NCBI RefSeq assembly: GCF_000973625.1
Contig: NZ_CP007501.1
Span: 186,001 to 250,000, forward strand
Reading direction: 5' to 3'
Origin: Polynucleobacter duraquae
Lineage (GTDB): Bacteria; Pseudomonadota; Gammaproteobacteria; Burkholderiales; Burkholderiaceae
Length of the DNA stretch: 64,000 nt
Within the stretch, counting starts at the first letter, position 1, and every line of letters begins with the position of its first letter. The notes under the pieces were generated by a model. It made no database searches, was not told the DNA's origin, and was given only the letters and a program-made list of their open reading frames with translations. A program made the translations under genes and the position numbers. This document shows, piece by piece, positions 14,822 to 15,426 of the stretch.

Positions 14822-14976
14822 CCAAGATTCATTAGCGTGCAGCACTTAGCATCAAGCCGCGCGCCGATGAATGGCTCGCTCGTCGGCTCCAATCGGTTGC
14901 AAAACCAGGCGGAAATGAATGGTCGGGTCTTCTTAATCGGTAGTTTGTACTAATCCTCACGTGAAGGAGCATTACT
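14822..14976. other. Non-coding leader between the nrd terminator and the H1-like gene
   Basis: No gene is supported here or in the wider stretch 14644-14976. Besides the terminator it holds a short perfect hairpin CCCTTG-TT-CAAGGG near 14737 and a GCCGA/TCGGC repeat near 14869. AAGGAG precedes the histone-like ATG by about eight bases. No tRNA-like cloverleaf was seen. Confidence 0.5.
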
Positions 14977-15249
14977 ATGGCAATCGCCAAGAAGAAAGTT
15001 GCTGCAAAGAAACCAGCTGCAAAGAAAAAAGTTGCTGCTAAGAAGCCTGCTGCTAAAAAAGTTGCTGCTAAGAAGAAGCCTGCCGCTAAAAAGCGTCCTG
15101 CTGCTAAAAAAGCTGCTGCTAAGAAGCCTGCTGCTAAGAAAAAGCCTGCTGCTAAGAAGAAGCCTGCTGCTAAAAAAGCTGCTGCTAAGAAGCCTGCCGC
15201 TAAAAAGCGTCCTGCTGCTAAGAAGCGCGTAGCTGCAAAAAAAAAGTAA
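14977..15249 (+). CDS. Lys/Ala-rich histone H1-like protein (zero-frame product)
   Basis: A 90-residue protein built almost entirely from KKPAAK/KKVAAK-type units, homologous in style to bacterial H1-like proteins (HctB/BpH1) that bind DNA non-specifically. There is no globular domain. The ATG follows a strong AAGGAG site. The zero frame ends RVAAKKK-stop at a nine-A run. A second frame immediately beyond encodes the tail expected for this family in Burkholderiales (LNPAAAWPFPTG...), so either ribosomes shift -1 or the gene carries a one-base deletion. The full-length product would be 131 residues. Confidence 0.85.
   Translation: MAIAKKKVAAKKPAAKKKVAAKKPAAKKVAAKKKPAAKKRPAAKKAAAKKPAAKKKPAAKKKPAAKKAAAKKPAAKKRPAAKKRVAAKKK
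14989..15240 (+). repeat. Degenerate tandem repeat encoding KPAAK-type units
   Basis: The DNA consists of variants of a 12-15-base unit built on GCTGCTAAGAAGCCT, differing mainly at third positions. It encodes the basic H1-like repeats. Such arrays are prone to expansion and contraction by slippage. Confidence 0.8.
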
Positions 15250-15275
15250 GTAAGCCTGCTGCGAAGAAAGCGGGC
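15240..15275 (+). promoter_or_regulatory. Candidate -1 programmed frameshift signal
   Basis: In the zero frame the gene ends with the heptamer A AAA AAG (15240-15246) directly followed by TAA. After a 7-base spacer, GCCTGCT (15254-15260) pairs with AGCGGGC (15269-15275), a 7-bp stem with one G-U and an 8-base loop. This is the arrangement of dnaX-type and IS-type -1 frameshift sites. Slippage avoids the TAA and continues to the stop at 15369. Confidence 0.55.
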
Positions 15276-15371
15276 AAAGCTGTAAAAAAGCCCGTGGCTA
15301 AAAAAGCTGTCGCTTCAACAACGTTGAATCCTGCCGCTGCTTGGCCCTTCCCAACTGGCACACGTCCATAA
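15246..15371 (+). other. -1 frame C-terminal extension of the H1-like protein
   Basis: Read in the -1 frame from GTA at 15246, 41 codons stay open to TAA at 15369-15371. They encode more basic repeats (KPAAKKAGKAVKKP) followed by STTLNPAAAWPFPTGTRP, a non-repetitive tail that I recall as the conserved C-terminus of H1-like proteins in related betaproteobacteria. Its preservation argues that the tail is, or recently was, translated. Confidence 0.7.
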
Positions 15372-15397: not shown

Positions 15398-15426
15398 AAA
15401 GGGATCTCTCACGAGATCCCTTTTTT
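15398..15426 (+). terminator. Intrinsic terminator after the H1-like gene
   Basis: GGGATCTC (15401-15408) and GAGATCCC (15413-15420) form a perfect 8-bp stem with TCAC loop, flanked by AAA and TTTTTT. It lies downstream of the -1 frame stop, so the whole extended frame is inside the transcript. Confidence 0.92.

Follow-up and report, generated by a model that had tools for sequence, protein, structure and literature searches.

Mobile elements account for far more of the conserved −1 frameshifts on record than do the ordinary chromosomal genes of bacteria. In Escherichia coli, the heptamer A AAA AAG slips well where a single tRNA-Lys with the anticodon UUU reads both AAA and AAG, and the dnaX gene of that bacterium resembles the locus treated here, a histone H1-like gene of Polynucleobacter duraquae, in this role of the tRNA and in the distance of its hairpin. 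Published accounts of E. coli dnaX, as far as they bear on these points, further agree with the Polynucleobacter gene in the heptamer itself, its phase and the presence of a downstream hairpin, but they also describe a Shine-Dalgarno (SD)-like stimulator and a shift that yields the shorter product, whereas the Polynucleobacter shift would yield the longer one. Eight SD-like strings sought 6 to 22 nucleotides (nt) upstream were found in none of 140 split Polynucleobacter loci, which rules out an upstream stimulator of these forms in that set; a conserved SD accompanies 11 of 69 clusters (8 of 56 plus 3 of 13) in the main text of Sharma 2014 and is hence not obligatory. The dnaX-type gene of the source genome holds no A6G or A7 string and was dropped as a second example of frameshifting.

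An A-rich slip site with a downstream structure is also reported, in the accounts of these elements that we draw on, for the transposases of the IS3 family; there, the product of the first open reading frame (ORF) is usually a DNA-binding protein, which the shift extends by a second part (Atkins 2016, as far as the review treats them). These elements are mobile and the added part is a catalytic domain, whereas the Polynucleobacter gene is non-mobile, lies beside nrdB and gains a tail of 41 codons. The dnaX gene of Thermus thermophilus is described, in the sources that cover its mechanism, as using transcriptional slippage at nine As, the same run length as here; in contrast, the Polynucleobacter run varies from 6 to 10 while the register and the downstream RNA are kept. 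With regard to the protein, its Lys/Ala/Pro repeats are shared with the Burkholderiales histone H1-like proteins of the NCBIfam family NF038053 and with AlgP of Pseudomonas aeruginosa, which carries a 124-aa N-terminal domain that is absent from the Polynucleobacter gene. AlgP is required to keep polyphosphate granules evenly spaced, and peptides of its repeat region bind to DNA (PMC9239181).

The listings, abstracts and main texts searched contained nothing on a frameshift in this gene, although a database of predicted frameshifts may already include it. The word histone is absent from the main texts of Sharma 2014 and of Antonov 2013, the criteria of which, as given there, required clusters of at least five genes, and it has one unrelated use in the available text of the Atkins 2016 review. 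The locus appears to present a known mechanism in a new host gene, one that encodes a histone H1-like protein.

The split histone H1-like gene of Polynucleobacter duraquae

The window, by which we mean the whole stretch of DNA analysed (64,000 nt), comes from a genome consisting of a single contig of 2,026,292 bases. The gene is flanked by what we take, from the names of their products, to be nrdB and a pfkB-type kinase gene. Its features, in window coordinates, are as follows:

14964..14969, + strand: putative ribosome-binding site AAGGAG, 7 nt 5' of the ATG, as read directly from the sequence
14977..15249, + strand: zero-frame ORF of 90 aa encoding a Lys/Ala/Pro-repeat histone H1-like protein (ORF and family matches)
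15237..15245, + strand: nine-A run, the length of which was counted over 140 split loci
15240..15246, + strand: slippery heptamer A AAA AAG in the zero-frame phase, found at the junction in 127 of the 129 loci classed as split by frame alone
15247..15249, + strand: zero-frame stop TAA, abutting the heptamer (127 of 129 loci)
15246..15371, + strand: −1 extension of 41 codons with the WPFPTG tail, then TAA (sequence and pN/pS)
15246..15305, + strand: synonymously near-frozen stretch, −1 codons 1 to 20 (heterozygosity against control draws)
15254..15260, + strand: hairpin strand a, GCCTGCT, starting 7 nt after the heptamer (pairing prediction)
15269..15275, + strand: hairpin strand b, AGCGGGC (a-b pairing across haplotypes)
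15290..15295, + strand: strand c, GCCCGT, an alternative partner of 15270 to 15275 (pairing counts and predicted folds)
15398..15423, + strand: terminator-like stem-loop and T run past the −1 stop (stem search; two such sites were found in the region against 1.7 expected from shuffles)

The zero frame ends in GCA AAA AAA AAG TAA, and the −1 frame begins with GTA (15246 to 15248), ends in STTLNPAAAWPFPTGTRP and stops at the TAA of 15369 to 15371. The predicted products are a short form of 90 aa and a long form of 131 aa with the C terminus LNPAAAWPFPTGTRP. The a-b stem comprises 7 bp, including one G-U, around an 8-nt loop. A preliminary description made from the sequence of the window had pointed out the ORF, the heptamer, the stem, the 41-codon −1 frame and a terminator past its stop, and its coordinates and counts proved right base for base. 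Among the 39 tRNA matches of the source genome is a single tRNA-Lys, with the anticodon UUU, and none with CUU; ARAGORN left two of the 39 unassigned, and neither is CUU when read by eye.

The best NCBIfam match of the 90-aa form is NF038053 hist_H1_lk_Burk (E value, 2.4e-7; 31.2 bits against a curated cut-off of 80); three in-frame relatives score 46.4, 46.5 and 70.9 bits against the same cut-off, and this family ranks top in all four proteins. The Pfam HC2 match of the 90-aa form (E value, 4.6e-5) also lies under its cut-off. The in-frame relative from genome G101 reaches the last position of the NF038053 profile, tail included, and the C-terminal WPFPTG tail is common to other genera. The repeat protein is of low complexity and likely to be disordered. 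A second Lys/Ala-rich gene of the same genome (L002; G000:C1:887302-887412) lies in one frame and ends in ISETPIAE.

Distribution and history of the split within the genus

The genus set comprised 186 genomes, 169 of which were matched by the tail query, with three more at a looser threshold, giving 173 loci from 172 genomes; 14 genomes are without a tail match, a count in which 4 were outside the looser search or incomplete and 8 others were searched once. Classing by frame alone, which left out 15 loci lacking an ORF start and 2 lacking the tail by the script, placed the tail in the −1 frame in 129 loci, in one frame with the repeats in 25 and in the +1 frame in 2; the zero frame of the 129 split loci ends in A AAA AAG TAA with two exceptions, from genomes G139 and G136. 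A search by motif and register recovered 140 of the 173 loci as split, with the zero frame ending in A AAA AAG TAA and the tail in −1. The string A10-GTAGTT occurs in 15 loci, one of which (G136) has an odd frame upstream, and 13 loci are without the motif (11 in one frame, G112 open to the contig end and G139 with a split of its own). In G011 an extra upstream base joins both parts in one frame, G121 has seven As and reads in one frame, and G111 and G134 have eight As, with one A lost, in a different register that would need another shift. G102, in which the contig starts just upstream and the tail holds a further frame break, was not classed; contig ends cut G112 and G003, G222 has two copies, and all of these were counted as found.

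Nine As are present in 129 of the 140 split loci, eight in 9, ten in 1 and six in 1. The six-A locus belongs to G017, a single-contig genome in which the heptamer is kept and the tail is intact apart from reading WPSPTG; the sole split locus with ten As (G119) gained the tenth by substitution, with the register kept. The preliminary description had proposed that a conserved A-run, zero-frame stop and stem in relatives would support programming; the A-run, the stop and the sequence that follows are conserved across the genus, with the heptamer and stop at the junction in 127 of 129 loci by the one classing and the split in 140 of 173 by the other. It had also named as a refutation relatives in which the two parts share a frame and the slippery heptamer is missing; such relatives exist, but only in other lineages.

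One-frame lineages lie outside the genus, in one deep clade within it, in nine members of a ten-genome clade (including G112, open to its contig end), in G015 and in four tips (G011, G029, G120 and G121); their existence indicates that the long form by itself is viable. The tenth member of that clade, G139, has a distinct split before the tail (L230; GCAAAAAAGTAG with A6 and TAG), the other nine being open in one frame; it may represent a frameshift site that arose independently, or else a fault of the assembly. In G134 (L155) and G111 (L220), eight-A runs leave the tail in frame +1, a state that may be a recent lesion, a sequencing error or a different recoding.

A tree built from the codons of nrdB and pfk with seven outgroups places the split state in 127 of a 133-member clade (5 not split, 1 not determinable) and in 12 of the 13 genomes of a second clade, the sister of which, G135, is in frame. 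With the root taken as in frame, 8 changes are required under parsimony, and each of 300 label shuffles needed at least 30. The split may have arisen once or twice, the deep nodes having support of 0.905 and 0.948. The split lineages have diverged to 72 to 77% nucleotide identity in nrdB and pfk. Outside the genus, the tail was hit 37 times in 399 sampled genomes of the order, and 36 of these hits have a continuous frame, the other being cut by a contig end, in contrast to the mostly split Polynucleobacter genes; these one-frame calls rest on the length of the open frame, with the shortest, G284, checked by eye. The matching position carries A10 in in-frame relatives, and the simplest origin of the split would therefore be an in-frame run of ten As that became one A shorter.

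A scan with a sequence pattern covering the slip site and the first bases of the stem found 85 stretches. Among the 80 matches listed, the tail is present in 71, the titles of which name Polynucleobacter or less precisely named betaproteobacterial or proteobacterial metagenome-assembled genomes (MAGs), and the pattern occurs without the tail in 9, at least 3 of which are Lys rich. In these three, L097 from a Nitrosomonadaceae MAG and L073 and L139 from Bacteroidetes MAGs, the A-run stands in GTAAGTAAGCC and a one-frame reading as KKVSKP is possible, which resembles the presumed in-frame ancestor of the slip site.

Constraint on the tail and on the RNA past the slip site

For the final 15 codons of 140 split sequences, 64 of them distinct, the −1 frame has a pN/pS of 0.197, compared with 2.71 and 3.51 for the two alternative frames, and nonconsensus letters number 69, 50 and 393 at codon positions 1, 2 and 3 of the −1 tail. 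The tail is under purifying selection as a protein, and solely in the −1 frame. This coding constraint suggests that the tail is translated and useful.

The main spacing is present in 116 of the 145 motif-bearing loci, and the codon tests used 114 genomes, taken with their flanks, or 110. Across 110 split genomes, the mean synonymous heterozygosity of the 15 testable codons among −1 codons 3 to 19 is 0.054, compared with an average of 0.380 for codons of the same amino acids drawn from the nrdB and pfk genes of these genomes, and none of 20,000 control draws was as low; a variant of the test on 114 genomes, of which four are not split, yielded 0.053 versus 0.383. In this 114-genome set, the Ala residues at −1 codons 5 and 8 are encoded by GCG in every genome that has Ala there (110 of 110 and 107 of 107, respectively), and a Pro codon of the frozen stretch is CCC in 111 of 111, while the gene bodies use GCG for 123 of 5,213 Ala codons and CCC for 21 of 1,423 Pro codons. 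Variation is seen at codon 18 and, to a slight degree, at codons 9 to 11, and it resumes at codon 21.

The last 12 −1 codons (15333 to 15368) are slow too, with a mean heterozygosity of 0.171 against 0.430 in controls and 0 of 20,000 draws as low, and part of the synonymous freezing must thus have another cause. Such freezing is therefore not unique to the frameshift element: synonymous change is slow throughout the 3' portion of the gene, and the stretch of about 50 nt after the slip site is slower than the rest. The codons of WPFP are synonymously invariant wherever the residue is present in the 110 split genomes, and slower than the nrdB and pfk controls.

Two mutually exclusive helices can be drawn past the slip site, strand b pairing with either a or c, and both are largely kept in the main group. 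In the window sequence, one central a-b pair has a predicted probability of 0.995. The a-b pairs form in 93.8% of 674 cells (104 haplotypes), and the b-c and outer pairs in 96.2% of 989 cells, the haplotypes of both counts being drawn from the 145 motif-bearing loci, five of which are not split. When the two helices are compared alone, b-c is the less stable in 29 of 45 distinct sequences, but together with its outer pairs it averages −12.1 kcal/mol against −10.7 kcal/mol for a-b. The hairpin a-b, 7 nt downstream, is predicted in the window and in most of the main group, with a modest excess of energy and weak covariation. In the predicted folds of G001, G037, G050 and G109, the four folded genomes of the six-member G001 group, and in those of G016 and G127, b-c replaces it.

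The energy of the window hairpin is matched by 205 of 1,000 synonymous recodings. The recoding z scores of 20 sequences run from +0.83 to −2.37 and overlap those of 12 in-frame relatives (−1.68 to +3.10), one of which, the control G135, scores as low as typical split sequences; for the G037 type, most recodings exceed the native hairpin in stability. No strong claim is drawn from hairpin energy, as recodings and in-frame controls overlap the native values. Covariation within a-b is at the shuffle level, with one pair changed on both sides against 1.0 in shuffles. For b-c and its outer pairs there are three two-sided changes against 1.4, a count reached in 14 of 500 shuffles, while other measures are at the shuffle level, and the covariation is suggestive only. 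The two-sided changes of b-c include a nonsynonymous pair in G019 (L212), where Gly is replaced by Ser and Pro by Leu; b-c stays paired there and one a-b pair is broken. Rfam returned four matches, all under their family cut-offs and none on the same strand over the slip site.

Probable mechanism, alternative explanations and the two predicted protein forms

On the basis of these sequence comparisons, we consider it probable that a programmed −1 ribosomal frameshift decodes the Polynucleobacter histone H1-like gene. Ribosomes would translate the Lys/Ala/Pro repeats up to A AAA AAG, where some would read the TAA next and terminate with the 90-aa form, which consists of the repeats alone. A fraction would slip back by one base on AAA and AAG, both decoded by the single tRNA-Lys(UUU), with probable help from the GC-rich hairpin 7 nt downstream, and would go on to add the 41 codons with the conserved LNPAAAWPFPTGTRP tail, giving the 131-aa form. 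We infer that slipping takes place during translation, with the hairpin as its stimulator, and that the cell makes use of both forms. The short form, or the ratio of the two, may be favoured wherever the split is kept, because a single inserted A would abolish it.

The same mechanism could operate with a different purpose: an ancestral in-frame A10 run may have lost one A, with natural slipping rescuing the long protein and the short form having no role. We regard such a tolerated lesion as possible but rather unlikely. The A10 at the matching place in 15 in-frame loci is consistent with it, as are the in-frame tips G011, G029, G120 and G121, which show the long form alone to be viable. Yet the gain of one base would repair the lesion, and none of the six nonsplit tips within split clades is an A10 repair; the A10 of the split locus G119 arose by substitution and left the register unchanged. 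The sharing of the split by lineages at 72 to 77% identity in nrdB and pfk and the constraint on the downstream RNA likewise argue against mere tolerance. Unlikely, too, is programmed transcriptional slippage, in which RNA polymerase would add one A to the nine-A run (or drop two) and the edited mRNAs would give the long form. It draws on the dominance of A9 (129 of 140 split loci) and on the origin of the ninth A from GCA, which accounts for 98 of 107 Ala codons at this position but 696 of 5,213 in gene bodies; Antonov 2013, in the part that defines the mechanism, names more than seven As for it, and nine in Thermus dnaX. This predominance of A9, fed by an uncommon codon, means that transcriptional slippage may add to the yield. 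Runs of 8 to 10 As are found in 139 of the 140 split loci, and those with eight do not speak against slippage because the threshold of Antonov 2013 is more than seven; a run of just six consecutive As does speak against it, but in a single genome of this set, G017, to which the separate split of G139 adds another run of six. Further, slippage needs no frozen 50 nt downstream, yet such a stretch is seen, with the final codons slow as well. Ribosomal slipping is preferred because G017 keeps the heptamer with six As and the downstream RNA is constrained.

To an error of sequencing or assembly, or to phase variation of the A-run, in the source genome we assign a negligible probability. Homopolymers are error prone, and G111, G134 and G102 may be cases of it, but a single register recurs in 140 loci from separate genomes, one-contig genomes included, and phase variation would be expected to leave genomes that differ in run length and frame, a mixture seldom seen in this between-species set. 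The loss of an A by mutation or misreading, which the preliminary description had raised as the main rival to its own proposal, cannot account for these loci; sequencing error, mutation in a single strain and phase variation between species are excluded by their common register. Separate expression of the tail, or its survival as a mere relic, is very improbable. A GTG does lie in the −1 frame 16 codons past the slip site, but the extension has no ATG, and where the window has this GTG, the only one of its extension, 60 of the 110 split genomes have an Ala codon, on which ground a separate start was rejected. Purifying selection on the tail and its in-frame fusion in other genera argue against both versions.

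The preferred reading, a ribosomal frameshift at A AAA AAG, admits of an elaboration that we hold to be quite doubtful, namely, a regulated switch in which b would pair with a, at a distance that stimulates slipping, or with c, which lies too far away, the rate of translation or the growth state thereby setting the ratio of tailless to tailed protein. If true, such a switch would alter the organisation of the nucleoid or of granules. By analogy with AlgP, the 90-residue form could be a plain binder of DNA or polyanions, and the tail could serve to contact some other partner.

Gene callers that halt at the TAA will miss the tail. The natural variants, with 6, 8, 9 or 10 As and with one-frame tips, could separate ribosomal from transcriptional slipping. 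What began as a lesion of the frame may have turned into a maintained recoding signal, and the frameshift, spanning most of the examined species of a genus, would give them two forms of a DNA-binding protein.
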